Assembly (NCBI GenBank): GCA_950022655.1
Contig: OX465587.1
Coordinates: 24,617,716 to 24,681,715, forward strand
Source of the DNA: Alentia gelatinosa
Lineage: Eukaryota; Annelida; Polychaeta; Phyllodocida; Polynoidae
DNA: 64,000 bases
Direction of reading: 5' to 3'
The notes beneath the pieces were generated by a model. That model did not search any database, was not told where the DNA came from, and saw only the letters and a program-made list of their open reading frames with translations. A program made the position numbers and the translations under genes. Position 1 is the first letter of the stretch. The number at the start of each line of letters is the position of its first letter. Shown here piece by piece: positions 1,302 to 63,900 of this stretch.

Positions 1302-1552
1302 CAATTTGAACATACCGTTACCACACACTTTTGGAATGTTCTCATTTCCTTTTCACCTTTCTCATTTGTCTTTCGTTTCTTCACCCCCCCAAATAAGTCC
1401 AGTGGCGGTCACAAACCTCAATTATTACTTATCACCCCCAGTGCAAGTGAGGCTGACTTGACCTTACACTTGTACTGTGTGCTGGCTGGGAATCCCCACC
1501 ATCTCACAAACTACTACATCCACTCATCTCATATATATACCATCCCAATTGT

Positions 1553-4390: not shown

Positions 4391-4590
4391 GTTACTTTGT
4401 TTGTCAGACCATTTCTCATCCACCATCCATCAATATTCATCAATCACTACTGTACAAATATTGTCCTAGTGTTAAGGATCTTGATGTATTACGTTGACGG
4501 CTGTAATGATGATTGTATTCCACTTTATACTTCCAGTGGAAGATCTGTCCTGATGTGACAGAACTGGTCGCAATAAAATAAAAATAAAAA

Positions 4591-5627
4591 GTCTTGTTAT
4601 CATCCACGTAAAATATACATTTTGTTGGCCTCCGCACATGTTTTTTAATTGGGCAGCGGATTTACCTGCAATGATATCACGCCTTACCTTCATATCCACG
4701 TGTGATATATTGCAGCTCTATATGTTTCACATCATCACCATACACTTTACTATACATTTATATAAACATATAACATGTAGACATTAGATGACTCTCTCTA
4801 CAGAGGACGTACATATGCCCAAAGACTCCACATTAGGCATACACATGTACCTGGGGGCCGTTGAATAAACTGCGAGCGACAAAAATGCATCCAGAAGTGT
4901 CTTTGGGGCCATAGTGTTGTATAAAATAATGTGCTGCAAAGAGAAGACAATAAAAGTAATCTAAACCCCGTACAAGGTGCTGTATACAAATACGTTAATT
5001 CAGGAAATATCTTCTCTTTTGCCATACAACACTGAATGTAAAAGGATCGTCCAAATATCGTTTATCGTTGGAGTTATCGTATCGTCCAGCACAGCACCAG
5101 AAACGAACGAACTTAATTCAAAAGCCTCCAGTATCTTTAGACTCTCTACATCGGCCACGCATTCGCGAATTCTCCTCTATATCTAGACAGGTAAATCCCT
5201 GAGAACCCCTCCATTGTCCGAGTACTTTGCAAATTGCCTACAGGACTTGGGGATAGGGCCAGAAGCACCAGTAAAAGACGGATTAACGTTGAGTGCTTTT
5301 ACATGGGTACGTTAGCACCCCTCTCTCCTGCTTCATCGCATCCTGAGCTGTCGCCGCATACCTCGCCCCCGGCTTTGTATAGGTTCCCCTGTGAGAAGGC
5401 CAGGGTACCCCTGCCTCCACCATTACAGTCCCCCTCAACCCCCTCCATCCACTTGACCACAACTCAAGCAAACCACCATTGGCATAATCACCATGAGTTG
5501 ATTCTTGGAGAACCACCTGGTTAGATCCGCTAGGAAAACAGCAGCCTCACAGGTATAGTGAGGTCATTATGTGCTTGAGCATAACCATGTTGTAACATCC
5601 GGAGGGGAGGGGACTCAGTGAGAGGTA
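4591..5627. other. Unassigned intergenic segment
   Basis: Open frames here are short and low in complexity, with no motif I recognise on either strand. The part from 5230 to 5520 is C-rich and gives a proline-rich frame, but there is no splice context or domain that supports an exon. Confidence 0.5.
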
Positions 5628-42037: not shown

Positions 42038-43689
42038 GTAGGTACATCTACTAACTATAAGGAGCACACATATATGTATATGTATTCTGCTTTAAGATGC
42101 TACTCACATAGTTTGTTTGTGAGACGTTAGGGTCTCTGTAAGGACATGGAGGTGCGGATCAGTTAGGTATGGATCTGGAGTCATACAAGGTAGGTGTTTC
42201 ATTTGCGCATTTCCGTCCGTATCTTTTTTGCCTCTCATTCCCTGGTGGTTCAACTGCTTTCATTTCTTTTATCAATATCTGTTTTATGTTTGTACATATG
42301 GATACAAACATTTCCGAGTCTTTTGTTTTGTTAACATTTGAGACAGTATTGCGCCCAGAAAGCGTGGATGCAGACACATATTATAGACAAAGATTACTTA
42401 TCAGATCACGTTCAAGTAGTATCATGATAGACCACGTACGGTAAAAAAATTTCTATCGACAATAACTCACACCTCCAAGGGCGAAGCGGGTAGAACCAGT
42501 AAGGGGAATGACTTTTTTCAATTAAAATTGTACCTTGCCCCTTGCCAGCCGTCCCTATAGAGGGTAAAAGTTCGAACAACAACCAGAAATTTCATTTTTA
42601 CTTCATTTGTACTCCAAACATTAGATAAAGGCATCTACTTTACAGTGAGAGTGTGAGGAATGATAGATAATTGTTTGTCTCGTGATCCTATTGATATTGG
42701 GATTATAAAGATATCATCAGTTCACGGAACGAATATAATTTGTCATCATTGAATCGAGTAAGTATAGAGATTTCCAAATATTGACAGATATCATTATTTC
42801 AATTGCTGTCAACGCTATTTCAAAGAATGTCTGTCATTTTTGAAAATACCAGGCAGGCAGTTTTGCCTAAAAATGGAAGATATCGTTGTGTGTCACGAAC
42901 GATAGGCATATAACAAAAAATCTTTTAAAAATCAAATAGAGTCGCTAAGAATTATTTAAGTCCTCACCGTTCCTTCGAGTAGCATGGTACAGCGAACGTT
43001 TAACAAAAGAAATACCCACATCATAATTCAGTCTCCCTATCAAAATGTCACATATGTGCCATGGCCATCCTTTAAAAAAAATGCAAGCTGTGAGAAAGCC
43101 AAAGTTTAAGGTGACAGCTGCTGTGGATACAGCTGTTGTAGACAGCAGAAGAATGTGTCACCGTCACATTGGAATATGTTAAAGAATTAATGATCTAGCT
43201 CTGTCGTTGTGCTATCAATTGAACTTCTCAGAAGTCTGGGTTAGTACTTGTTTACTTTGTGCTTCTATATAAATCTAGCATAGACTATAGAGAATGGAAT
43301 TTGTACTATGGCTCTTGGCCATGTCATACATATGCATGACATTGAAATGTGCTCCTCTCTCATCCTCCTGTCGGAATTACCCAAGGCTGTGCACTAGGAC
43401 AATATTTATTATCTTAAATAATTTATAAACCTACAAGTATGGATTTTAAACTACATTTCATTGCATCCGGCATTCGTTGATTTCACTTCACTCAGAGCAT
43501 ACTGAGAGCAATATCAAGGCAGATACCCAAGCTCCATTGATAGATTTGTTTGTATGCTTTCGAATTTTCCTATAAAACTTCGGTGTTCCAGGCCTGACTT
43601 CCCGGCCCGATATGGGTGTGGGAATAAGTTGGTGTCAAACGATTGTTTTTACAATAAGTTCCCTTCATTGACTTGCTGCTCCTTTACAG
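42038..43689. other. No exon identified; presumed intron or intergenic space
   Basis: AT-rich sequence left of the LPMO gene. The LPMO's upstream 5' UTR exon should lie here or further left, because its first coding exon begins at a splice acceptor. Confidence 0.4.
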
Positions 43690-43700
43690 GGCCTCCAGTG

Positions 43701-43874
43701 ATGGGTGCGGTACACGGTTGGTTCACTTTGCTGACGATGGTGGCGCCAGCGCTGCATTTGGTTTCCGGTCATGGCCGCCTGATGGAGCCACCGTCCCGAG
43801 GCAGTATGTGGCGGCAGGGTTTCCCAAGTCCAATCAACTACGCCGACAACCAGCTCTTCTGTGGGGGGTTCAAG
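43701..43874 (+). CDS. LPMO exon 1: signal peptide and histidine-brace N-terminus
   Basis: The acceptor TTTACAG ends at 43689 and leaves 11 untranslated bases before ATG 43701, so an upstream non-coding exon is implied. The exon encodes 58 residues, ends GGFK, and stops at a GTGAGT donor in phase 0. The longer open frame from 43554 crosses this acceptor and is not used. Confidence 0.9.
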
Positions 43875-46800
43875 GTGAGTTCGATCTGGTACAGTCTTTT
43901 CTATTTGGGTAAATATTCACGCTATATTACAAGGATATTACAAAATACCGTAGAAGATACCATTGATCATTGACCCCCTCTAAGATGCACCCTTAGATGT
44001 TCGATTTTGCCTGACTTAAATAGACTTTTTGTCCCCGGACTGAGGGTGTCCCCTTAAAGGGGGTGCTCCACCAGGCCGATTTCTCACCCGATCAATTGTT
44101 CCTGGGCCCTTAAGAGGAAGCTCACCTATTATAATTTATTTAATTCTGACAATAATAGTTTAATAAATGACCATTTTCAAAGATTTGAGAAATTCTAGGG
44201 CATCCGATAATTATCGGCGATTGTCTGGCTACGAAATCGGTTACCGTCGGTCAAGTGGAACCAACCCTTAAGCAGGGTTCTACTTTACTTACGTACACAA
44301 ATATGTGCATACATGGTTGAGCTCTTATAATAGTATGTATAAATGTTCCGTGGTCGAAAATATATTATTTCATATGCCGCTCATGCCTTGCTAGATAGGG
44401 TCTGTCGCAATTCCATAGTTTCGGAACTTCAGTTATGTGAGTATTTGGGATTATGAAAGTCTGATCAAAGATGATATATATGGCTCTACACCAACTTTCA
44501 CAAAGACAGGTATGATGATAAGTAACAGCAGCAGATTGCTTTGATAGGGGGGATATTGACATACCCCTTCACTGCTTCTCATTTGTTATATCAAGATGTA
44601 AAAAGACAAAATCTGATGTGTGAGTGTCTGTTCTGTTTGTTACTGATTACAAACTTCTACCTTATGAGTTCAAGGACACTAAAGGTCATGGAACTTTGCC
44701 ACTCATGAAAGGGTCACATAGAGGTGGGTCAAGGTCAAAGGATTACCAAGTGCAGGTCAATGTCAACGCTGTATCACAGCTGTTGGGGCTGAAAGTCAAA
44801 TGCAGGACATAGTAAAAACCTCCACCCGTTTGTAAATGACTATTATAGTATCATGAATGATTTTCTAAATTTACTTTTTGGTTTAAATTTCTATTCATGA
44901 TCTATATGGGCACTGATATGAAATGTTGGAAGGTAACTGATTACCCTATGAAAAAATTGAAGTTTTTTTTTCTATGAGCAGAGATCCACATACATATTGA
45001 TATGTATCTTATGTAAAGGGAAGGCACATGCACCATTCGCAAACAGATTCTATAGTATTACGAGAATAGGTGACCAGTCAACAGCCTCTATCTATATTTA
45101 CGACCGACACGATGCAACAATAGATTGGAAAAGAATTATTCCTTTATTTCTTATCCATAATTATTCTGTTTCCATGGCAACAGCACCAATGGGAGGACCA
45201 AAATGGCCGCTGTGGCGTCTGTGGAGACCCGTATGACGGACCACGTGACCACGAACCTGGCGGGAAATACTACACGGGAATAACGACCAAAACGTTCACC
45301 AGGGGTCAGGTCAGTAGGAGGACAGTACATCTATGAGATCAGATTTACTGCATTCTCTTTTTCTATTATATATCTGTTCACCAATACAGATTTGTGATCA
45401 TTTCTATCATACAGCACAAATACGAAAATTAATGTATGCTTTATGGGATGTAAGTTTTGATATAGACCTGATATTTGATGTCAGATATGAATTACAAGAT
45501 AGCCAGTTTTTCATTTTAGAATATTCTAGTATAGGAAAAAGGAAATAGTTTCGTCAACTTTTTCAAAGGGAAGTATTTGTTATTTACTTTCTTAGTGTTA
45601 ATAACTAATATAATGGATCATTTAATGCTGCAGATTATAGATTTCAAGGTGGAGTTGACTGCATTTCATTACGGATACTTCGAATTCCGTCTATGCCCCC
45701 TGGAGTATCGGAACCAAACTGTTGGACAGGAGTGTTTCGATAAACACATTTTAAAAATAATCACTCCTTCTGAATCAGGAGTGACGACCAGATACGTAAG
45801 TATAAAGTTTTCAGCGAATTTAGGTATATACAAATTACTTATAAGTGTGATCCTGGAAATAGATTTAATTACATTTCCTAATTGGATGAGGGTGGCTTTT
45901 ATCGGTGGTACCTTTTAAAATAAACGTACAGTAAAACATCAGTTGCGTAGATGTCTGTTTACAGGGCCAGTCTACAGCTCAAACGCTTAGACTTGGGGCA
46001 GAATGCGTTGTCTCTCTATCAAATGTCCCCCTCATGTAGCCACTCAATAACACGGGCACCATGTTTGTATAGCGATATTTCTCGTAACCGAAGAAAAAAA
46101 TCATGTTATCAAGAAATTGTTATGGTGGTTAGAGGGCAATCGGGACAGATAAATGTCGATTAGGTCCATCGATTATGATATTTAACACCGCCGAATGATT
46201 ATATGATATAGTATACATATGTGTTTCTTCAGATGATATGTTAATTCAATTAAAAAATACTACTTAATGTGCCAAAATAGAGATCTTATGCTATAAGTTG
46301 AAAAAAAAGCTTAATTGGAGCCACATGGACTTTAAAAGAGTAAGGAACAGCATTCTGATATTAGGGGAATATAGCAAAACATATATTCACCAAGGTCCAT
46401 TCATGTGGAAAACAACTACCAACTTATTTTCTATTTTCCAATAGAAACTGCCGTCCGACCCCTCGATCCGAATGGTGAAGTTAAAGACCCTCTTGCCAGG
46501 CAATGTTACTTGTGAACAGTGTGTCCTCCAGTGGAAGTATCATGCTGGTAAGTCAACGCCTTCATTTACTGCCAGGTTTGTAGTGCTGTTCAGCATTAAG
46601 ATAAGGGTGTTTCCTTGAGAAGGATATAGACTATAATCGAGAGGTCGACGTGTGTGCCTTTGTCAACTTCGAGTGGTCTACAGGGCCACTTTCCAAAAAC
46701 CATCGATTCTTATATTTCTTGCCCATGGTCATTGATAAGAACATCTATTCCTAGAAATTCCACAATAAGTTTGGAAAAGCCGTAAACCATGGATGGCGTT

Positions 46801-48999
46801 TATGGCAACTAATAAAGAATGAGTAGCGGCCTGACATCAACCATTCTCTTAGAAAATACTTATGTCGAGAGGATACAATCTGGGGGATAATTTCGATTCC
46901 TTGTCATAGGAAATGGCCGCACCTTGAGATGTGGAAATCACCCATAAACTACCAAAGGAAATACAAGAAATTGCTGACATATCATACTTCAAGATTCACA
47001 GAAAAGGTCATATACTAGAAAACCGACACCTACGGTTTAAATAAAAGATAACTTAACTAATGCTTGGCCAGCAAAGGCAAAGGCAAATAAATGTTCTTAG
47101 CATAGTATTACAATTAGAAACATTCTTTATTGTACTGCCCTACTGTATTGACTAATCATCTCTCTGTTTGCTGAACAGTTAATTGTACTTGTTGTGTTGT
47201 CGACTGCATATAAAAACGCCTGATAGGGGAATGTACGTCTTTATACTGAGTAATAAAACAGATTACATAAGTGAAAGGTTCGTTAGATTCTTAATTGAAT
47301 ATAGATGGCGACATAGTTATAATGTGATCCGCAAAAAATCTGAAGCAACAGTTTCGACCTCGGGTCGCTATTCTGCAATCCACAAAACGTGGAGCAACGC
47401 CCCCCAGGGGTGAGATAAAACAATTTATATCAGTTATTTGGGACACTTACTTATTGCACTATGAGACACAGCCTTCTTTTGTTCAGTGGATTCTTCTTTT
47501 TTTTTGCAGCAAACAGCTGGGGAGAAGAAAAATCAGGACGGGGATGTGTCGGGTGTGGGCCTCAGGAGGAGTTTTATGGCTGCTCCGATGTCCAGATCAT
47601 TGAGCCAGGTGGCGCTACCACGACACATAATGCCCACAGAAGCGCCATACACAGTAAGCCTGCTACAAACGTAGGTTCAGTCCAACAGGGCAAAGCTGCT
47701 CAAAAGTCTTCCCCAGAATCCTTGAACAATAGAGTGATAAAGGGTGAGGAGCACCAGGATGATTGGGGACCATGGAGCCGTCCCACTTACGAGAGGCCAC
47801 AGAGCAATGAATGGCAGGGCTTCAAAAAGCAGCCTGCATCAGTGGTAGAGCCAAGGTCGCTGGACTCGTTAAAGGACATGAAGGCAAGTCTGGTGGGGAA
47901 TTGCCACGCGACTGGAGCATGGAAGGGCCAGGCTTCTATGGATGACTGGTGTGAGGTGAACTGTGAGAGGGGACACTGCCCTAAGTCCCACTGCCTCTGT
48001 GTGCAGCAGAAGAAAGCCCCTGTAGGGTACTCCCCCGAGCCTCTTGGGCGGCCTGCGACACAGCAGCAATGGTCGCCAATTCCCAAGCAGACTCCTCGGA
48101 AATATGACCAGCATCCACAGCAGGGCGCGTCATCAACGACCAGGTTCAATGTGTGGGAATTCCCACAAAAACAGCGCGCGGCAGATTTCCAGATTCCGGG
48201 CAGTTATTATATCGGTTCACGCCCGCGAGCGAGGAAGGCGAGGTTCCCGGGGGAGCACGTGACTGGGGTGGGGAGAGCCCACAATGACGTGCCGTACTGG
48301 AGTGGAGAGGGAGGTGACGCCGGTCCTAGTCAGAGGTACAGGAGGAGGCTCAAGGGGGAGAGGAAGGCCAAGAATAAAATCAGGAGAAAGGAAAACATTG
48401 ATGATATTCTCGCCTATAGCCAGGAGACCTTCTACAGCATCAAGGATCAGGCTGAAGCTGCCTACAGGTCACTGACGGGCAAAGATGTCCCGGACTTCCC
48501 CGCTGGCTTCCTTGATGAGTACAGGAATTTCGGTGAGCAGCATCCTTCTAGGAATTCTCTGTTTACCTCGCCGGATGACTTATATAAAGCTGACGGCTAT
48601 GGCCTGACAGGACGGCTTGGAGGCCACACCAGGCAAAATACCCACTATACATGGAAGCCACACGGGCGTTCTGGACCTGTCTATAAGAAATTCCACGTTC
48701 AGGAACCAGGGAACTTCCCAAAAGGGAATCATCACTCCTACAACAGACGGCGCAGTAACTATGGCGATCGTGACCTAATCTCCAAGGCGCAGTTCGTGGA
48801 TGATAAACTAGGTGTCGCTACGACTCGATGGAGGCCCGAGGGCAAAAAGGCGTCACTGTCACAATCCGGGGACAGGGATTTTAGAGGGAGACATTGTGTT
48901 GCTGCTGGGGCTTGGACCGGTCAGGCGCCGATGACAAAGTGGTGTCAGGGGAACTGTGCTCTGGGAAACTGTCCAGCGACACACTGCAAGTGTACATAA
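43701..48999 (+). CDS. AA15-type lytic polysaccharide monooxygenase, five coding exons, about 684 aa
   Basis: Secreted copper enzyme expected to cut chitin- or cellulose-like polymers oxidatively. Coding exons are 43701-43874, 45184-45309, 45634-45795, 46445-46547 and 47510-48999; all junctions are GT-AG and the frame closes. A 23-residue signal peptide (MGAVHG..HLVSG) precedes HGRLMEPPSRGSMWR, so cleavage exposes His24 as the N-terminal copper ligand. The second ligand is His112 in TAFHYGYFEF. Family blocks CGVCGDPYDG, GGKYYTGI, ANSWGEE and CGPQEEFYGC follow in order. The catalytic domain ends near residue 220. A basic Ser/Gly/Arg-rich region of roughly 430 residues follows, with Cys-rich motifs at 320-352 and 651-683. 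Similar C-terminal motifs occur in lophotrochozoan and amphioxus secreted proteins. Substrate is not shown by the sequence. Confidence 0.93.
45184..45309 (+). CDS. LPMO exon 2
   Basis: Forty-two residues from HQWEDQNGRCGVCGDPYDG to FTRGQ, between acceptor GGCAACAG and donor GTCAGT, phase 0 on both sides. The paired Cys of CGVCGD are conserved in AA15. Confidence 0.88.
45634..45795 (+). CDS. LPMO exon 3: second copper-ligand histidine
   Basis: Fifty-four residues between acceptor GCTGCAG and donor GTAAGT, phase 0 on both sides. VELTAFHYGYFEFRLCP holds the second His of the brace; NQT is a possible N-glycosylation site. Confidence 0.9.
46445..46547 (+). CDS. LPMO exon 4
   Basis: KLPSDPSIRMVKLKTLLPG through CEQCVLQWKYHA, between acceptor TCCAATAG and donor GTAAGT, leaving one base (phase 1) to complete the codon with exon 5. 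The WxY stretch precedes the conserved NSWG of the next exon. Confidence 0.9.
47510..48999 (+). CDS. LPMO exon 5: end of catalytic domain, long basic tail, two Cys-rich motifs
   Basis: It follows a strong polypyrimidine acceptor TTTTTGCAG and runs to TAA 48997-48999. It opens with NSWGEEK, GCVGCGPQEEFYGC and SDVQI, the last AA15 block. About 430 residues of low-complexity, Arg/Lys/Ser/Gly-rich sequence follow, with the two Cys-rich motifs. That this whole tail is one uninterrupted exon is unusual next to the short exons of the catalytic part. Confidence 0.92.
47902..48000 (+). other. Cys-rich motif 1 of the LPMO tail
   Basis: Thirty-three residues with the pattern C-x2-G-x-W-x-G-x3-M-x2-WC-x3-C-x3-x-C-x3-HC-x-C (CHATGAWKGQASMDDWC then NC, HC and CLC). 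It has six cysteines and may bind carbohydrate or form a small disulfide knot; its function is not established here. Confidence 0.8.
48895..48993 (+). other. Cys-rich motif 2 at the LPMO C-terminus
   Basis: CVAAGAWTGQAPMTKWC, then NC, NC, HC and KC repeat the spacing of motif 1 exactly over 33 residues. Only one residue (Thr) follows before the stop, so it forms the very C-terminus. Confidence 0.8.
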
Positions 49000-53706: not shown

Positions 53707-54320
53707 ATGAAAAGTTTCTTTTAATTGCAACGTACCATGATAACCTTCATAATCTCTGAACTAGAAATATATGACTTTTTTTCACCTTTACTATGTGGTA
53801 CGTGACGTTCAAATGCATACCCTGATCGGCATGTGTACATGTATAAGTTTTAGTAGTGTTAGTTACTCACATTCCCGAATTACTGCATCTACTGGCACCT
53901 TGCAACGGTTTCCCCGGGACACTAAATGGATATGCATTCAGGGATGATGACATGAGGCATTGCCAGGAATATCAAGCGAAGTTTACGAGTGTGTTTTAGA
54001 GTCAAGTACTCGTATTTGATTTACCTGGAACACATTTAATCAAATATGATAACCTAATAGTATGATAAGCAAGCATAGGATGTATATTTAACGTAGATAA
54101 TAATATAAATACACGAATCCACGTTAAGCAATTTAGACATGGGAATTACATGAATACCCCCGAATTGACACATGCAGGAATTGTTGCGGACCTCCACCTG
54201 CTACATACCAGTATGCACGGAGTATGGGTAGGGGAATAAAGCCAGGCTTCATACCAAGATCCAACATTTGCTTAATGACAAATAACCAAAACATTTCCAA
54301 TGACCACTCCTTATACATAC

Positions 54321-55353
54321 CTACAGAGGAGGGCTTGTTTTTTCGTGATACTGTGAACTCCTCTCTGTAAGGATCACTGAAGCTGATCCTGGTTTTTTGT
54401 GGCGGTCCCGTCAGATCCAGCATCTTTCTAAAGAACATCAGAGTCAATGTACAGGAGGCACTGGTTGTGATGGCTATACACGTAGCTGGGTTAGCATACT
54501 CCTCATCACCCAAGGTATAGACTAGAGCCCAGGTGAAGAGAGTGACAGCGATACATATAACACTACTAAAAACATACACTGACTCGTGCTGAAAATGTCT
54601 GGCTTTGACAGTCCGTAATGATACTCCAAATGCGATGAGTAAGAGTAGGAATACGTATGAGGCTGACGCTACTAGACCGTGACGGGTATGGGAGCATCGC
54701 CATCGTATGACGTATAATGGGTAGTGTCCTTCTGAACTGATATCATACAGGTAGGATTCTGTATTGGGTGGCGCTATGATAAGCCATTGTGCTCCTAGGA
54801 CAAGCTGAATCCCTGAGAGCACCAATACAGCCAGACACTGGCTCGGTCCACTGATAGCTGCTGCCTGCTCCTGGCCTTCCTCAGCCATGCTATAACGATG
54901 GACCCTGACGGCTCGCACCAGCAGCACATTGACCATGGTCACATAGAGCAGGCCAAAGGTGAAGCGCCTGATGCTGCAAGTGACTCGGTTCTCCGAGAAC
55001 AGGAAGGCGAAGTTGAGGAGGTACAAGAAGATGAGAGTCAGCAGGAGGAGGACACTGACGCTACACGTGGCGCCTCTCACTACCGGGTGCTGGAACTTGA
55101 GGATGAAGAAGATGATGATGACCAGAGAAAAGATGATGCCCATCACAGTGAAGGTGAGCACCAGGACCCCCCAGATGGTCCGGTGGGCGGTGAACTTGAG
55201 CGGAACGGAGGCACTGTCAATGAGGACCTCGCTCTTGGAGCAGTTACATGTGCCTGGACACTCGGATTTGACCTTGACCACTGTGCCCTCTGCGTTGTAC
55301 ATCTGTATCAGGGATAGGTTCACATGAATGGCGCCCGACGTCCATCTGCCCAC
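54321..55353 (-). CDS. Receptor exon: linker 3 and seven-transmembrane domain
   Basis: 344 residues. Linker VGRWTSGAIH with CPGTCNC (residues 32-38), then TM1 60-87, TM2 95-119, TM3 126-150, TM4 173-194, TM5 225-248, TM6 258-281 and TM7 289-309 by hydrophobicity. TCSIRRFTFGL at TM3 and WRCSH in loop 2 supply the conserved class C disulfide (Cys126-Cys220). The tail FRKMLDLTGPPQKTRISFSD is cytoplasmic. The donor GTATGT after TCTGTAG ends the exon in phase 1. The 7TM domain is intronless. Confidence 0.92.
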
Positions 55354-58300
55354 CTGCAGGGTGAAATGAAATAAGCGTAATATTAGTATTTCTCCATGCG
55401 AAACTTTAATCATATATTAAAGGAATACTGAATTGATGACCAATTTTTATATGAATTTACTGGTCTCAGGTATAATACTTTATTGAACGGCAAAACTACA
55501 ATGGGTTAGGAAAATTTATGCGGCTTTTAAAGCCAAATGGATCATGCGATATTGCCCTTGCAGGAATCACTAGGTCTGCAGGAGTTATATTTTGTGATTT
55601 TTAATAATATGTACTTGGAGTTGGGAAAGTATAATTTTTCTGTGCAGGATTTCCATGGGAAAGGAAACAACCATCGGGATTGAAGCACACACTTCACTTT
55701 AAAGACCAGCAGACTCCATCATACTGATAATTTAAGACATTTACATTCTGGTTACGTTTCTCGTTTCAGTCTTTAGAGAAATATTAGGACCAAATGACTG
55801 TAGAAGCCAACCTGTACATGTTCTTACAGTACAGAGATGATACAATGGGTAGATAGCACGATATTAATGACAACAGATCAGAATAACTAGTAATACAGCG
55901 CGTTTGCGTTCTTTCCTCGAACGTAATAACTGCATTAATACGGTTTTTCCCCCAAATTCAGAATGTTTTTCCATGTCTGATGTAACAACCATTTACCTCC
56001 TCGTAGCCTTTAGTTTGTGTCGATATCCTTTCCATTTGGTAGTTGAGGATTCTATATCTGCCGGGACCATTGCCGGACTGAGTGAACTGAAACAGGTTGC
56101 CATCGGCGCCCGTGAACTTCACGTTACTGATATAGTCATAGACGAGGGCGCTCGTCCGCGTGCCTCCCCTCAGGATATCACACGGCGGTATCACCACACC
56201 GCCGCATCGCTCGTGGAACAGCCGCGAGAGGCCATACGCATAAGAATACACAGCGTTAATAGTGTTAATCACATAGGGATTCGACGAAAACGTCGCGTTT
56301 TCTAAGGATTCCAGACCAGTGCAGGCCCGTCCGTACCGCCCGCCATAAGCTAGATCACACTTGAAATGATTTTCCCAGAACTCCTTCACCCAAGGGTTAT
56401 AGTTGCTATGGCCTAGAGTTAACCTCCGCATGTACAGATCAAAATAGATATCCTTAGTCGTTGCTGGTACTATGGTGTAGGCCCCTCTCGCGACATCATC
56501 AAAGCCATGGAATAACTGATCATCCAATCCCCACAAATCCGTCCCGATCAAGACAAACTTTCCAACTGCATTGTTCCTCCTGATGGCAGCGAGAAGAGCA
56601 ATTGTTTTTTCTTTGCCAGCAATGACGACGACGCCAACTGCTCCCTTCGCAGCGAGCAGCTCACGAACGATCCTGTCGTAGGACTTAAGGTCCTCGGGCT
56701 CTTTGAGGCTGAGCTTGGAGGCCATGCAGAGACCATTGCTGTACATTAGTTTCTCCACTAGGAGGTTGAGCTCCTTGTCATGAGAAGAGGCGTCAAACAC
56801 AAGCCCAACGTAGCTCCACTGTAGGGCGTTTATGAGAGCCACCAGAGCCTGGGCCTTTTCTGTGTCAGGAGCGATTGTTCTCAGAAAGCGGCTGTATTTC
56901 TTTCTATCTGTGAGTGATTCAGAAGAAGCCCCTGGACTTATCTGAAAGTAAATAAATTAAAACTGCTTTTGAAATATATCATGACAGGGACGTGCATAAA
57001 CGGGCCGGACGATTGTGAAGTGATGTAATTCACTGAAATGTGGATACGCAGAGTTCCATACTTAGTAGAAACCAAACGAGAGTTAGCTACGTTGGGCTTG
57101 TGTTATGAACATTGACATGGCTAACTCGAGTTTGGTTTCGTATTTATCCTACCCCATCTCACCGATATACAGTGAAAACTTTGTAATTATCCATGTTAGT
57201 AGCATGTTGACACTCATGGGAGGATGGCCGCGTTTATCAATACTGCTGGATCTACTTTCGTTACCTCGTCCCTGATTGGTCCGTTTTTTTTATTCACCTC
57301 AGTGCATAAATAACAGTTTATTCAACAATCAGTCAAATACACTGACTCAATGTTAAACCTATGGCGTTTTATATTAAGGGTAGGATAAATACTCCTCCCC
57401 CACCCCACCCAGCAGTACTTATATAGAACGTCCTGACCATGCTGTACAATTCACAGAACGAGATGGTAATTCATGGTTTGTATGGACTGAGACATTTATG
57501 CCGAGTTCCATACAAACGGTAAATTATCCTACCCCTAATAAAAAACGCCATAGGCTTAACATGGGATTTGTTTATGTCACGGGTAGTGACATAAAGTGTT
57601 GTATATGCCACTACTTTCTGATACTGAAAAAATATGGAAACGGGGTAGGATCAAATCTAGACGCCACTCGTTTGAGTTTGAGCTTATTCATGCCACTTAT
57701 TTTGTTGGCTCCGTAATGTCACTCGTCTTCGACTCGTGAAATTATGGAGCCAACAAAATGTGTGGCATAAATAAACTCAGACTCAAACTCGTGACGTCTC
57801 TTGATATTATCATCGAGTGACTTGTACAAGCATGGTTGGACGTTATATATTTACTATATACCCAAATTTAAAAAAAAAAATCATTAATTTAATTTTTAAC
57901 AACCGATATGTTAATAAACTTGTATCGCAAGATGGTCCGTATTTTAGTGTACGGACCAGCGGTCCGTACAGTATTTTTACGTCATATGGTCATACGTCAT
58001 ATGGTGTCAAACGGTGCATATTTACAGTATATACGGCATGGGTATATAGTAAACGTTCACAGTGAGACTAAGAGAGTCAGTGAAGCATACACAGTGCACA
58101 GAATCGTTATGTATACTGTGTACAACCAGCAGCACCAGTCCCCAACTCGTGACTCCGATCCCATACCTCAGTATAGGACGATCCTAAACTTCAGTATAGG
58201 ATTCATCAAGTTTAATTGACTAAGCTAATTCATCTTTAAGGGTTCATACACATTGCGTTACTAACCTGCACAAGATGCTGACCATGCATGCTAGATTCAT

Positions 58301-61300
58301 GGAGAACCTTGCTAACATCATTCCCGATCCCACCAACAAACGCTTGCACATAGGTGATAACTGGCAACTGTGAAGACTGGCTGAAGAACCTCAGACTCCT
58401 GTCAAAGGCATTGAAGGCTACCTTGGCTGTATTGGCGTCAGAACAGGTGTCGAAGATCATGTAGCCCAAGGTGACGTTGCCTAGTAGGTGAGGATCGAGG
58501 TTTATCCGTTCTATGGCGTATTTAAAGGCCATCAGGGTTTCAAAGCCTTCCTGACTACGGAACTCGGTGCAGTGTTCACCCCTTGGACCTGCCTTGTGTA
58601 CAGGGAAGTAACCTAGGAGTGTCAGCCGGTCGTACCTGTTTTGTTTCAAGAAAGTGGTATTCATAACTGAAAATGGCTTTGTATTGGATCATTTACCAGA
58701 TCGCGTGTGTTAATTCTATGTAGTGTGAAAACGTAACAAGTAGATCAAAACCACAAAAACTAGCACAGTATCATTCATCTCAAGATGACAAATTTGGTTC
58801 ATGAATGCTAAAACAACGAAGAACTATCGATTTTAGAGGGGAAATGTTCATAATATACTATACTTTTACAAGGCAATAGAGGACTCTTAGGTGCCTGTTT
58901 TTCTGAAATGATTTCAGCAGCAACATTATCGCACGATCAATTGGCCTTTTAAATAGTCAACTACCCAGGAATTTGCCTGAATCATTGTAGGTTTACTATT
59001 CAATGTCGAGGTATTATTCCTGAGACCTTGCCAGTAAGTTTCATATCAAAATTGGTCCTCCAAAAAGCACACAACAGTATTCTAGATTTTGATAATTACC
59101 TAAGTTCGTATTTCAGGTCTGTGACACTTTGACTAGAGCAGATACACGGCTGGTTCTCGGTGTGTACGCAGTGTGACGTCACTGACGTCACATGACCCGT
59201 GACGTTCTGAAAGGATATCCCCACGAAATCTTTGCGTCGGATGTTGAGGCCTTGATTTAGCTGCCAAGAACCAACCTGAAACAAATAAGTTATGGTTTAG
59301 AGCGATAGATACTCTCTGTGGAACTCCATTAACTGTAGAATGCAACTGTGATATTAAAGTTGTGAAACATTTAGAATATGAAAGGATATATATATGAAAG
59401 AAGAACCCGCTAAGGAAATTATTGACTATATTTTACTCTCCTGTGGGCGATAAACCTTTCATTGTGAACCCTTGCACATATTTCTACGAGTTACTTCATG
59501 TTCTGGGGCAGGCAGTATAAACTTTGCACTGCAACTGTGTGCAATAATTGTAGTGTTCTGTGCTTTGAAACACAGGAGAGAAAACGCTGCTATCCGTGCA
59601 GGATGTGTCATTATGACATTGTCTTGACATAACTGCACCAAACAACCTGTGTCGCTGAACAACAGATGCTAACTGAATGACAACAAACCTTGAGCAGTCT
59701 TGTCATAGTATATCAGTTATTCGGGTAGCTTTGTAATTGCCAGGAAGAAATATATATGTTGCAGTACAGCTGTTAATCTTTCAAGTGTTAAGTCATGGTA
59801 ACTGTCTTTGCACTACCCCTATACTCCTCTATCCTCCCCTATTAATGAATAAATTGTCTGCATAGCCAGTGGAATGATGGAATAAAACATCAACATTACC
59901 TTAACGTATTCATGAACACCTTTAGATGCCTCCTGAAAACTAAAAATATCGTATTGAGGCGTGGCACTGCCGAGCTTATCGAAGGACACTGCAGTCTTGG
60001 TAATACCGTTGTAGAAGTGCATCTGTTTGATATAAGTATGAAGCTGGGCTATTCCACTCCTAGCATGCCTACACACTCCTCTATAGTTCACTCCGCAAAG
60101 ATCTGTTAGGAGATTGTGAAGTCCAAGTGCCGTCGCATACACAGCGTCGATTACCAATGGAACGTGAGTTGCCATGGTAATATAGTCGTTTTCCAGCGTG
60201 TGTGAAGGACTGCAGGACGTGTTGTAAATTCTCGCGAAATCTCCCGTGAGGTAGCACCGAAAGTAATGCTGCCAGTATTCAGCAAACCAAGGGTTTCTGT
60301 CGTTCGTCCAGGGTTTTCTACTCTGGAAATAGGTCAGGAAGTCGGGTATCAATTGCGTGGAGAAATCCAGAGTGATGGCCTTGCTCAATAAGGTCTCGTA
60401 CCCCGCAGTCACTGACTTCCTCTTTCCCCATTGGTCCGTGGCTAGCCAAATGAGGTCATGTGACCCACGCCGACCAACCAGCGAGCTCAGAGACTTGAGA
60501 ATCTTCTGCGCATGCTTATCAGTGACGAACAATACCACGACCTTGGCTTCGACGTAGGCTTCAAGGAGGTAGTACTGAACAATATTCCTCATGGCCACCG
60601 TATTATGGGTCAGGTAGTTGTCGAGTCTGACCTGGGTGGCTATACAGATGTCAGTGCCCTCCAGAAGGTTGAGGAAGTCCTTCATGGCTGAGTTGCCGTA
60701 TGCGTTATTGGAGTAGATGACCTTGACGTAGGTCCAGTTGAACACACGTAGAAGATCCTGTACAGCCTGCACCTGGTTGAAGCCAGAACCCACAGTACGT
60801 AAAAATGTCGGGTATAGTTCTTTATCGTCCAGCTCTGTTGCCGAAGCCGAGTAACTTATCTGAGTTATTTGCAGAGGTGCCAATAGTCTCCCTATGGCCA
60901 TGCTGACGTCACTGGTGGCGCCACCTATCGTAGCTATTGGACGAACTCCTTTGCGATCAAATGACCGCAACTGGAATGTCAACAAGAAAGAAAAATGAGT
61001 GTAATATTAGAACTGTACATACATGTATTTTGATGATAATAAATTCAAATATAATTGAATATGATTGAAAATTGATAATTGTATGAGCTGAACTGAACGG
61101 TAAGTTCCTCCAAACTGATAGTGTAAGCACTAGATATAGATCGGCGAAGAACCAGCTCGCCATGGAATCTGGTAAATTCTGAACTCTTATTACTAATTCT
61201 TATTACAAAGTCCAAACACTAATTTGGCAACTTGGACTACACACCTTTGAGATATAGGTCAAGGCTAATATATTCTATATAACTCATGTATGCAGGTTGT

Positions 61301-63900
61301 AGTCCAACTACCTTAGCTGCATTTATATACAGGATGCTGTAGTATAGAGGATATCAAACCCTAATTTTTTTTATTCATTCTAATTTGCAGTGTAGTTCTT
61401 CAATAGATTACATATTTCAGCACGTTAGCGAGCGTATAACGGAGTCAAACTTGAGTTGTTTACAAAGTTGCCTATCGACAAAGCCATCGATTGTTTCATT
61501 TATTATCCATCTTCTCGAAAAAGATTAAGCCAAAGAATGATGACATTATATGGTATATCATTAGGCACAGTTATATTTTTTTGCTCTCCAGCAAAAATGA
61601 TCTATCAATAGCTTTGTGGCCGTAATCAATGGGTCCAAATCCTTAATCAATAGTTACGACATCTGACATCTTAGAAAGAGTGGGTAGTGGTTTACAGTGG
61701 CCCCACACATTTTTAACGGGGACTTTTTAGTCGATGGAGATCCAAACAGAGTGTACTATCATCAAAGTCAGGTCACTTATAGACGGGTCATAGATATGAG
61801 ATATATCCATATCAATATTGTTACCTGCACCTTCCCGCTGAGTAGGTTCTCGGTGTGGCGGACCGCCCTCTCCGGGCTCTGGCAGGAGTCGAAGGTGGCG
61901 GCCCCGAGTCTCACCCCGGGGAGGATGTCTTTGTCCTCGTTGACCAGGTCGATGGCGTAGTACAGCGCCTCCATGGCCTGCACAGCCTCGGCGTCCGGCA
62001 CACCCCCGCACTCACTCACCAGCGAGTGGTCTCCTCCAGGGTCCGCCTGTCGCACTGCGTTACCCCCGTGAATGTCGAATATCCCCTGGAGGACCAGGTC
62101 GCCACCCTCCATGACGCCGTACCTAGTGGGGAGTCAAACTATGGGTGAATTGATTTATCGACACAGGGTTGTCATGATGCAAAGATGAAACACGAATGTA
62201 TTGCGAGTGGGGAATGAAAAGTATTATCGTAAAACTGGATGAGTTTTAATCTTGGCCACCGTATGCTACGACTGGAGTTTGGCATAGTGACTTCATGAGG
62301 CGAATCCAAGTGAAGTCTGTAGCAAAACTCCAGGAGTGGCATGCGGTGGCCATGATTAAAACGAATCAAGATTTGATTTTATCCTACCCTGTCTCCTCGA
62401 TTTTGAAATATTATGTGATAACAATTCTGTATGCCAATAGTGGCATATAAAACTCTGTATACCAGTCAGCGTGGCATACGGAAACTCAATGTTAAGCCTA
62501 TGGGATTTTATATTAGGGGTAGGATGATATATATGGCCAAACGTCTTTGAAATACTACCAATATGGCCTTTGGCGTAGGGACGTATTTTATAGGACAACA
62601 GACCTCGAATATTCAACCCTACGGGCTCAGTAACCACGTTAATTCTTGATGAGATTCGCTGAAATTACAGTGGTCTCTCCTTCAGCTATAAACTAGTATA
62701 GAGTATATCCAGAGTTGATGGAATTGTCACTTCGAATGTGCACATGGATATTGTTGATAAAACAATACCCTGTCACACATACATGTAATGTGTTTTCCTC
62801 TTAAGAAAGTAATCCCAGAGATTATACCTGATTTGACACCATAAATACTAGGAAAGAATGTATGATATTTACTATATATATATATGTCGTTTACCAGTAG
62901 AATACAAAGTGCCCAGAAATTAGGACATGTGGTAAATTGGCGTAAGGGGCACATTCTCTCCCAAACACGCATCTTGGCGTAGAATCTATGTTTGGAGAGC
63001 GTTAGATTCTCTCCTACTCAATATAGTCAATGTTCGTTCCTTTTGCAGACTTATTCACATTTCCTGCTTACCATACATATTATTGCTAAGCCCTTACCGG
63101 TCGTCATCGAGCTGATTCTTGCAGACACACTTATAAAGGCATTTGGACGCCGGGTACAGCATGCTGCTACGTCCACTGACGTCATAAACTTTAATTCTCG
63201 TCTGCAGCCTCAGGCCTTTGGCTTCAGTCCAAGTCCCGATCTGGAATAAGTTCAGATTCTTCAAATGATAGTGTAATAGCAGGAAATTCTACACGATAAT
63301 TGTTCACGAGGTCATATATGTTCATAAATAAAATTTAAAGATTGCAAAGTTTTGATCAAGAGACTTGATGATTCATTGCTTAATGTTTTAATCCCCTGAA
63401 TGCAATGTATATTTCATGATACATGCATATAATTGCAAGCAGGATACGAGTTCCCAATGTTAAGATTTTAAAGGCCTGCCGCTCACCTTACGCATGCTGT
63501 ACGACACGCCGTCCAGCTGCACGTTATAAATAGAGAACACCGGAGCCGCCAAGTCGCCGTTCTTGTCGAAGGCCACGATCTGCCCGTCGAGATTGACGAA
63601 GGTGCTGTTGTAGAGGTACCTGATGAGACGCTGAGTGGAGATGGAGGCCAGGTCCGGGCAGAGGCCGGTGAAGTTGGCGCCGCACACGTCGCGGTGGGCG
63701 TCCTTGAAGCCCTGCGCGTACGCGTACACGGCGGCCACCGTCTGCGCCACGCCCGCCGCCTGGCGGTACGTCTGGCGGTACGTGGTCACGTGACCCACGT
63801 CACACGTCTTGTTCACGGTGCAGTTAAACGTCTGCTCCCAGAACTTCCGGAACCAGGGATTGCGCCGGTTGCCGCTCGGCGTGAGGCTGGTGAAGTATTC
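54321..63900 (-). CDS. Class C GPCR (mGlu-like) with at least three tandem Venus-flytrap modules; N-terminus outside window
   Basis: Plasma-membrane receptor; the ligand is unknown. In transcript order the exons are 63900-63487, 63240-63098, 62122-61825, 60970-59900, 59275-59100, 58635-58266, 56941-55997 and 55353-54321, about 1,483 residues in one frame with GT-AG junctions. They encode the end of VFT1, linker 1, VFT2, linker 2, VFT3, linker 3 and an mGlu-like 7TM domain. Each linker starts (I/V)GxW, the end of a VFT fold, and carries C-x(3-7)-C-x-C in place of a nine-Cys domain. Linkers 1 and 2 splice to the next module in phase 2, and no signal peptide or start codon lies between modules, so I read one gene and not three. 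The C-terminal tail after residue PSSV probably continues in an exon not found. Reading through the donor would add a tail ending at 54133. Confidence 0.88.
55997..56941 (-). CDS. Receptor exon: second part of VFT3 (membrane-proximal)
   Basis: 315 residues from ISPGASSESLTDRKKY to TQTKGYEE, acceptor TTACTTTCAG, donor GTAAAT, phase 0 both. LIGTDLWGLDDQ, NPWVKEFWENHFKC and FTQSGNGPGRYRILNYQ are clear mGlu-type blocks. The hinge reads ISPGASSE and the next helix start VFDASSHDKEL, so the Tyr-Gly and Ser-Ala-Thr binding residues seen in VFT2 are not kept. Confidence 0.9.
57066..57391 (+). mobile_element. Modular foldback element E10 in a receptor intron
   Basis: Arms GAAACCAAACGAGAGTTAGC (57068-57087) and GCTAACTCGAGTTTGGTTTC (57120-57139) fold; then TTATCCTACCCC, a long spacer, CTCAATGTTAAACCTATGG and AAGGGTAGGATAA. 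The apex lacks the usual GCGAAGC word. It lies in the intron between the two VFT3 exons. Confidence 0.7.
57524..57810 (-). mobile_element. Modular foldback element E8 in a receptor intron
   Basis: Minus-strand copy of the E4/E6 type with apex CGAGTCGAAGACGAGTGACA, TTTTGTTGGCTCC stems and boundaries TTGATCCTACCCC and GGGGTAGGATAA. It lies about 130 bases from E10. GAGTTCCATAC occurs just left of both elements. Confidence 0.85.
58266..58635 (-). CDS. Receptor exon: first part of VFT3
   Basis: YDRLTLLGYFPVHK through QHLVQ, 123 residues, acceptor AAACAAAACAG (phase 2), donor GTTAGT (phase 0). It resembles the VFT2 start exon but runs about 24 residues further, so the internal intron sits at a different place. 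The loop reads GGIGNDVSKVLHE, with G-N where VFT2 has T-S. Confidence 0.87.
59100..59275 (-). CDS. Receptor exon: linker 2 (mini Cys linker between VFT2 and VFT3)
   Basis: VGSWQLNQGLNIRRKDF then HCVHTENQPCICSS; acceptor TTGTTTCAG (phase 0), donor GTAATT (phase 2). Spacing C-x7-C-x-C is four residues longer than in linkers 1 and 3. NVT is a possible glycosylation site. Confidence 0.83.
59900..60970 (-). CDS. Receptor exon: main part of VFT2 with amino-acid-binding signatures
   Basis: 357 residues, acceptor GACATTCCAG, donor GTAATG, phase 0 both. GGATSDVSMAIGRLLAPLQ and ISYSASATELDD correspond to the mGlu amino-acid-binding loops; YSNNAYGNSAMKDF keeps the Y-G block, and WLATDQWG the lobe-2 Asp. 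NPWFAEYWQHYFRC and CGVNYRGVC follow. These retained blocks suggest that VFT2 can still bind an amino-acid-like ligand; this is inference. Confidence 0.9.
61825..62122 (-). CDS. Receptor exon: start of VFT2
   Basis: YGVMEGGDLVLQGIFDIHGG through NLLSGKVQ, acceptor CCCACTAG (phase 2), donor GTAACA (phase 0), 99 residues. VLQGIFDIH and the AMEALYYAIDLVN helix are the usual first strand and helix of a class C VFT. It is GC-rich, unlike the following exon. Confidence 0.87.
62226..62526 (+). mobile_element. Modular foldback element E9 in a receptor intron
   Basis: Copy of the E3 type with CCACCGTATGCTACGACTGG and GGAGTGGCATGCGGTGGCC arms, worn apex TCATGAGGCGAATCCAAGTGA, TTATCCTACCC, a spacer with TATGCCAATAGTGGCATA and GTGGCATACGG, and GGGGTAGGAT. 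It lies between linker 1 and VFT2. Confidence 0.8.
62528..62645 (-). repeat. R-family repeat (copy R2)
   Basis: On the minus strand AACGTGGTTACTGAGCCCGT then AGGGTTGAATATTCGAG matches the left half of R1 at 53.58 kb. It directly abuts E9. Confidence 0.55.
63098..63240 (-). CDS. Receptor exon: linker 1 (mini Cys linker between VFT1 and VFT2)
   Basis: IGTWTEAKGLRLQTRIK then CLYKCVC and QLDDD; acceptor TTATTCCAG (phase 0), donor GTAAGG (phase 2). The C-x3-C-x-C spacing equals that of linker 3 before the 7TM domain. Confidence 0.82.
63442..63468 (+). mobile_element. Modular foldback fragment (E12)
   Basis: GGATACGAGTTCCCAATGTT followed by AAG equals part of the E2 spacer and tail. Only this fragment is present, 20 bases from the donor of the VFT1 exon. 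Confidence 0.45.
63487..63900 (-). CDS. Receptor exon: C-terminal lobe part of VFT1
   Basis: 138 residues from EYFTSLTPSGNRRNPWF to SYSMRK, between acceptor CACCACTAG and donor GTGAGC, phase 0 on both sides. NPWFRKFWEQTFNC is the mGlu-type lobe-2 block, followed by CGANFTGLCPD. It aligns with the second half of the VFT2 exon, so VFT1 has an extra intron. The earlier half of VFT1 lies beyond the window. It is strikingly GC-rich compared with the VFT3 exons. Confidence 0.85.

Follow-up and report, generated by a model that had tools for sequence, protein, structure and literature searches.

A probable class C GPCR gene with three tandem Venus-flytrap domains in the annelid Alentia gelatinosa and its apparent multi-Venus-flytrap family

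Class C GPCRs are a model for how closure of a Venus-flytrap (VFT) domain drives a seven-transmembrane (7TM) domain, and the usual class C receptor is a dimer of chains with one VFT each. Venus kinase receptors also carry a single VFT. BvgS-type sensor kinases are bacterial and periplasmic, have a histidine kinase output, and are a parallel to the receptor described here rather than its kin. Phrase searches covering the open PMC literature, with subscription papers and preprints outside their scope, turned up no account of a class C GPCR chain bearing several VFTs among the papers listed.

We analyzed a stretch of 64,000 nucleotides from the annelid Alentia gelatinosa (the window; C9:24617716-24681715 of a 1.23 Gb assembly). 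The original prediction for this DNA was a chain of at least three tandem VFTs followed by a single 7TM domain. Our finding goes beyond it, since the window gene appears from its sequence to be a short, three-VFT member of an apparently undescribed multi-VFT class C family whose usual form has five VFTs.

Gene model and domain content

The window is intron-rich animal DNA. It had been predicted to hold eight exons in one continuous frame with phases agreeing at every junction, and we found all eight on the minus strand within 54321-63900 (E1-E8, Table 1). All have AG/GT borders, and they join as a single open frame of 1483 codons with matching phases. We then read 59 kb of sequence to the right of the window, where minus-strand frames gave five added exons (S1-S5) whose phases fit as well. 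The start of the gene lies 5.1 kb outside the window, where S1 begins with ATG and MTLFAAALVLLTILMGSTHAQ, a signal-peptide-like opening. From S1 to the E8 donor the whole model comprises 13 GT-AG exons and 1806 codons (coding length about 5.4 kb), with no stops, no broken splice border and one N-terminal signal peptide. E8 ends at a GTATGT donor at 54320; alternatively the same frame reads through to a stop at 54133.

Table 1. Exons of the receptor gene, in window-scale positions
Feature	Position	Strand	Content and basis
S1	69053-68795	-	ATG and signal-peptide-like start; frame reading
S2	68039-67917	-	frame and phase fit
S3	67649-67483	-	frame and phase fit
S4	66371-66167	-	frame and phase fit
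S5	65185-64971	-	frame and phase fit
VFT1 remainder and signal peptide	64971-69053	-	right of the window
E1	63487..63900	-	C-terminal third of VFT1 (NPWFRKFWE motif); phase 0-0, AG/GT borders, ANF_receptor
E2	63098..63240	-	linker 1, three-cysteine mini-CRD CLYKCVC
E3	61825..62122	-	N-terminal part of VFT2; entry phase 2
E4	59900..60970	-	rest of VFT2; four residues (S, S, Y and D) of the five-residue amino-acid motif
E5	59100..59275	-	linker 2, mini-CRD CVHTENQPCIC
E6	58266..58635	-	N-terminal part of VFT3; entry phase 2
E7	55997..56941	-	rest of VFT3
E8	54321..55353	-	linker 3, mini-CRD CPGTCNC, and the entire 7TM domain; GTATGT donor at end

In a Pfam search the 1483-codon chain matched ANF_receptor along three separate stretches, with a whole-chain E-value of 2.2e-112, and had one 7tm_3 match at 4.1e-36. 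When the modules were scored apart against ANF_receptor (PF01094, 353 positions), VFT1 covered positions 2-351 of the profile (E 6.1e-41, 141 bits), VFT2 2-351 (E 1.1e-54, 186 bits) and VFT3 3-351 (E 2.3e-47, 162 bits). The 7TM domain covered 5-251 of the 251 positions of 7tm_3 (PF00003) with 129.6 bits against a cut-off of 33.5. Thus the HMM search proposed with the original prediction gave three near-complete ANF_receptor domains and one complete 7tm_3, and trees were run against ordinary class C receptors as had also been proposed. The two features that mark a class C GPCR, a 7tm_3 domain and an extracellular VFT, are both present. The domain order, in a single open spliced frame, is signal peptide, VFT1, mini-CRD, VFT2, mini-CRD, VFT3, mini-CRD, 7TM. 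The nine-cysteine CRD (NCD3G, PF07562) had no match in the chain up to E 0.1 and 0.01.

The original prediction had also called for the locus to be extended rightwards and its VFTs counted. The five further exons completed VFT1, and the total is three. A tblastn search, for which the chain and four ordinary class C proteins served as queries, picked up parts of the missing VFT1 half at window-scale 67.5-69.0 kb and found no fourth VFT up to window-scale 122785. As far as searched, therefore, "at least three" VFTs means three. The modules are mutually only 23-28% identical, so that neither a recent duplication nor an assembly error is at work here.

Several other features were noted. Short repeats related to one another were seen by eye at about 52.15-52.68, 57.4-57.7 and 62.17-62.66 kb, inside or beside the introns of the receptor gene. 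They have open stretches in both orientations and are probably a dispersed element. On the plus strand, a LINE-type frame at 1457-4390 (977 codons) encodes an endonuclease domain and a reverse transcriptase domain. A possible lytic polysaccharide mono-oxygenase gene lies at 43506-48999 on the same strand, where the frame 45535-45918 matched LPMO_10 below the cut-off (E 0.0065) and a long frame at 47419-48999 had no Pfam match. COX1 was found on the mitochondrial contig C101 (15,368 bases), whose identified genes all lie on one strand. Their order is cox1-N-cox2-D-atp8-Y-cox3-Q-nad6-cob-L-W-atp6-H-nad5-F-E-P-T-nad4L-nad4-C-G-M-rrnS-V-rrnL-L-A-S-nad1-I-K-nad3-S-nad2, with tRNAs found by ARAGORN, protein genes named by eye from long frames and rRNAs placed from gaps. 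We take this to be the annelid ground pattern with trnG and one trnL moved, which points to an annelid as the source. ARAGORN did not find trnR on this contig, and a long simple repeat lies at about 4460-4840 between trnA and trnS.

A single chain and its five-VFT relatives

Tandem class C genes are common, and a rival explanation is that two or three adjacent class C genes were misread as one, VFT1 and VFT2 being remnants or secreted VFT genes beside a one-VFT receptor. We scanned the introns for an ATG and hydrophobic stretch followed by a GTRAG donor, the one donor type covered. No signal-peptide start with a GTRAG donor of the right phase was found in the seven inner introns of the window. 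An ATG before a hydrophobic stretch does occur four times in three of these introns (62954; 58802 and 58778; 55935), as separate genes would have it, and none of the four has a GTRAG donor. The scan recovers the real signal peptide but misses its real donor, GTACG. Since the gene's own first donor is of this type and only GTRAG was scanned, starts preceding GTACG-type donors would be missed. The claim that no signal peptide separates the modules thus holds in the form that no start with a fitting GTRAG donor lies between them. In addition, there is no 7TM match between the modules, and both VFT2 and VFT3 start mid-codon, each after a phase-2 intron.

We then asked what other proteins share this architecture. 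A protein search with the 1483-residue chain scored 7993 candidates and returned four class C receptors, all of the ordinary kind. One with VFT3 and the 7TM of the full chain scored 7995 and returned a single match, Pecten maximus LOC117333723. These two word-limited searches yielded no close orthologue or transcript of the three-VFT chain. The Pecten protein has 2804 residues, five ANF_receptor stretches and one 7tm_3, and is 23% identical to the window chain. A search with it gave 56 proteins, the query included, five of which are from fish. Among the 51 non-fish proteins (Pecten query counted), exactly five VFTs and a single 7TM were counted in 47; the other four have 4, 4, 3 and 3 VFTs, and one of these is without a 7TM. 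VFTs were counted with HMMs built in this analysis, whose seeds include the window and Pecten modules, and neighboring fragments were merged by rule. The fish multi-VFT proteins (P0056-P0060) look like fused or 7TM-less gene models and were excluded from the counts.

Named proteins make up 37 of the 51 and come from molluscs (bivalves, gastropods, a chiton and cephalopods) and one nemertean; taxonomy was looked up for four of them. The other 14 come from the source "lgn", and in 13 of these a single frame covers all five VFTs and the 7TM; the contigs concerned measure 8.6-11.1 kb. These contigs are presumably transcripts, because they are too short for an intron-rich gene and the annelid five-VFT gene spans about 37 kb. 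That gene is in the same genome as the window, on the minus strand at C9:50764345-50801453, where each of the five VFTs and the 7TM has a match and the matches are colinear. The occurrence of full-length proteins of this make-up in many molluscs and in a nemertean shows that the multi-VFT architecture is real and old.

The 47 proteins in which a single frame encodes five VFTs and one 7TM, including the 13 from the 8.6-11.1 kb contigs, also count against adjacent genes misread as one. Two of the fish models (P0059 and P0060), with two VFTs and two 7TMs, do resemble such fusions. We consider that explanation highly improbable for the window locus; the gene model and the five-VFT kin agree with the original prediction that the modules sit on one chain with a single 7TM.

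A decaying pseudogene is, in our view, just as improbable. The long branches in the trees described below and the lack of a transcript among our matches are what such a gene would show. Against it, 5.4 kb of coding sequence in 13 exons is without a stop or damaged splice border, and the cysteines of the linkers and of the 7TM are retained. A VFT2 search of the genome found no near-identical second copy. With its own locus excluded, the best match over most of the module was 31% identical and lay at an ordinary mGlu-like locus; the higher identities (32-45%) were partial matches of 47-229 residues.

In the databases most of the named five-VFT proteins are labeled "uncharacterized" or "hypothetical", and a few "metabotropic glutamate receptor 3" or "GRM7-like". 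Labels of the latter kind conceal multi-VFT proteins. Several molluscs have two five-VFT paralogues (P0017/P0036, P0019/P0040, P0026/P0045, P0027/P0041), and in the module trees the members of the Haliotis and Patella pairs fall into separate groups, A and B. On many contigs of the genome we also saw class C loci, many in number, in which one long frame, often of 700-790 codons, encodes a VFT and about half of the 7TM. One-VFT receptors appear to have expanded here.

The relatives share further traits with the window gene. Linkers and motifs were counted in 46 of the 47 five-VFT proteins, the short partial model P0052 having been dropped. Exactly three cysteines are present in all three linkers of the window gene and in 225 of the 230 linkers of the 46 proteins; each of four ordinary class C receptors has nine. 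The motif C-x(2-9)-C-x(1-3)-C follows the VFT in 3/3 window linkers and in 224/230 of the others. C-x-C occurs in the linker before the 7TM in 46/46 five-VFT proteins and in 11 of their 178 motif-bearing inner linkers (184 in all), and it is present in all three window linkers. For the 7TM we aligned 10 of 21 rows (the window gene, four five-VFT proteins and five ordinary receptors). Two features, RRF next to the cysteine of TM3 on its C-terminal side and a gap of two residues following TM6, were each found in all five multi-VFT rows and in none of the ordinary ones. RG in TM2 is present in four multi-VFT rows, with KS in Saccostrea. In TM7, four multi-VFT rows have RK(M/L) and Saccostrea has RRV, whereas all five ordinary rows have PKxY. 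The TM3 cysteine, the second-loop cysteine and the TM6 glutamate are retained in all ten rows.

We defined the family by at least two VFTs with one 7TM on a chain, three-cysteine linkers behind all VFTs with C-x-C in the final one, the 7TM signatures and a VFT1 in the position-1 clade, and the window gene has each of these. Because it has three VFTs, it is a short form and lies outside the five-VFT subfamily. The gene model, the domain count and these family traits are computed results.

History of the modules

Our careful VFT tree had 58 rows and included eight five-VFT proteins and the genome's own five-VFT locus; an earlier quick tree had 72 rows and 13 five-VFT proteins. The rows of the own five-VFT locus were patched from matches, its v1 row being partial (281 residues) and its v2 row including some 49 residues that come from the VFT1 area. 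In the 58-row tree each position of the five-VFT proteins formed one clade (v1 100/99, v2 99/94, v3 100/100, v4 100/100, v5 100/100), and the same position clades were recovered in the quick tree. It follows that the five modules already stood in this order before the sampled molluscs, the nemertean and this annelid diverged. From the own five-VFT locus, v1 and v4 group with mollusc B-type proteins (100/94 and 100/96).

Window VFT1 groups with v1 (99/97), and v2, v3 and v4 together form one clade (100/98). VFT2 and VFT3 fall near the base of the tree and their placement is not settled; VFT1 and VFT3 were flagged as long branches. We compared placements by AU tests, in which the clades were picked after seeing a tree and long branches are involved. 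Holding VFT2 with v2 (p 0.003), v3 (p 0.001) or v4 (p 0.02) was rejected in each case, modestly for v4, and holding it with v2+v3+v4 jointly was not rejected (p 0.22). Neither VFT3 with v5 (p 0.38), VFT3 with v2+v3+v4 (p 0.16) nor VFT2 with VFT3 (p 0.08) was rejected. Placing VFT1 with ordinary VFTs costs 27.7 log-likelihood units and was not rejected at 0.05 (p 0.07). The 7TM tree took in 15 five-VFT proteins and one of the four own loci given, the plus strand alone being read. In it the window 7TM is a long branch between the ordinary receptors and the five-VFT clade, a position that carries a long-branches-meet warning.

One further locus of this genome was included in the module tree. C9:2501902-2503158 (L026) is a single VFT exon with a 542-codon frame that sits beside v2+v3+v4 with weak support (92/72), and in the 58-row tree its row fell outside the chosen outgroup. 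It is the one VFT exon seen in the 90 kb read there, and a 7tm_3 match lies about 35 kb off on the same strand at C9:2466132.

The exon structure suggests how the ectodomain could grow. E2-E4 measure 1512 nt and E5-E7 1491 nt; both are multiples of three with phase 0-0, and the phase-0 introns that flank these blocks fall right before (I/V)-G-x-W. The same phase-0 break is present at (V/I)-G before linkers 1 and 2 of the own five-VFT gene, the two linkers examined there. Since a linker-plus-VFT block lies between phase-0 introns and its length is a multiple of three, it can be copied without a frame shift. This points to a route by which ectodomains gain modules without a break in the frame.

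In the history that we propose, the ancestral gene would have been VFT1-middle-last-7TM, arising by frame-neutral duplication of the phase-0 linker-plus-VFT exon block. The middle module would later have been triplicated in the five-VFT line, and the window gene would have stayed at three. The tests favor, without proving it, a split of the three-VFT line before the triplication of the middle module. The window gene could instead descend from a five-VFT gene through the loss of two modules. In favor of this, five-VFT genes are widespread and one is present in the same genome, and phase-0 blocks would let modules be lost without a frame shift. Against it, the AU tests given above rejected VFT2 held with v2, v3 or v4, modestly in the last case. 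We regard such a loss as unlikely.

Ligand sites, mechanism and known systems

In mGlu1 the amino-acid backbone is contacted by Ser165, Thr188, Asp208, Tyr236 and Asp318, according to a published account (PMC2680970). We scored these five positions, allowing like-for-like changes. VFT2 retains four (all except Asp208), VFT3 three and VFT1 one, and four ordinary receptors retain all five. The original prediction had left the choice between a built-in multi-site sensor and extra VFTs used as spacers, and this motif pattern narrows it. Among the 46 five-VFT proteins, at least four of five positions are kept by v4 in 37, v3 in 28, v1 and v5 in 19 each and v2 in 14. Every one of the 46 has at least one such module and 39 have two or more. 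In total 117 of the 230 modules keep at least four positions; when the columns are shifted by 1-5, no more than 8 of the 230 do so. Multi-site sensing is thus a live possibility in the five-VFT forms.

The alternative is that all VFTs but one are spacers or dimerization surfaces that lift the receptor above membrane or matrix, leaving one ligand site or none. The single motif position left in VFT1 is in keeping with this, as are the low counts for v2, v1 and v5. The four positions of VFT2 and the three of VFT3 speak against it, as do the 39 proteins with two or more motif-bearing modules and the excess over shifted columns. We judge the spacer explanation to be rather improbable.

From these results we infer a ligand, a stacking, a mode of signaling and an evolutionary order for the window gene. 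The His of MATHVP in VFT2 aligns with the Lys of mGlu2 ESKIMF, which we take to be the equivalent of mGlu1 Lys409, a marker of glutamate receptors. With four of five motif positions kept and His against this Lys, our best guess is that the ligand of VFT2 may be an amino acid other than glutamate. The three VFTs would stand as a column, neighbors being pinned by the short three-cysteine linkers. The ligand of VFT2 would be an amino acid or a small molecule related to one, and probably something other than glutamate. When the column closes or rotates, VFT3 would relay the movement to the 7TM, which would then signal via a G protein. VFT1, its motif lost, would cap the column, make a dimer contact or hold a site for a different ligand.

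Taken together, we think it probable that the window gene is a functional gene for a class C GPCR with three tandem VFTs, that it belongs to the multi-VFT family, and that it has the stacked-column mechanism and pre-triplication history set out above. We put forward more tentatively, as a possibility somewhat short of probable, a family whose chains each bear a column of three to five VFTs and which arose no later than the divergence of molluscs, nemerteans and annelids. Several VFTs of a chain would have kept binding sites and one 7TM would integrate several ligands, the window gene being the pre-triplication form. If a conserved family of three to five VFTs is confirmed, a signal can traverse a stack of VFTs and three-cysteine linkers instead of a nine-cysteine CRD, and multi-ligand logic could be tested directly on a single receptor.

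The mollusc and nemertean five-VFT proteins resemble the window gene in their tandem mGlu-like VFTs, a three-cysteine linker per VFT, one 7TM and the same signatures; they differ in having five VFTs against three, and identity to the Pecten protein is 23%. Among solved structures the best relatives are mGlu2 for VFT2 and mGlu7 and mGlu4 for VFT3, and the 7TM belongs to the same superfamily. However, mGlu receptors have one VFT, a nine-cysteine CRD and PKxY in TM7, whereas the window gene has three VFTs and three-cysteine linkers. GABA-B receptors are class C and join the VFT to the 7TM without a nine-cysteine CRD, as the window gene does, but have one VFT per chain. They were absent among the matches listed (60 of 166 solved relatives), and the module and 7TM trees contain no GABA-B rows. 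Venus kinase receptors are invertebrate receptors and have an mGlu-like VFT with the same amino-acid motif (PMC2680970), but carry a tyrosine kinase where the window gene has a 7TM. The BvgS-type bacterial sensor kinases, as described in PMC4352136, share with the window gene the arrangement of tandem VFTs on one sensor chain.
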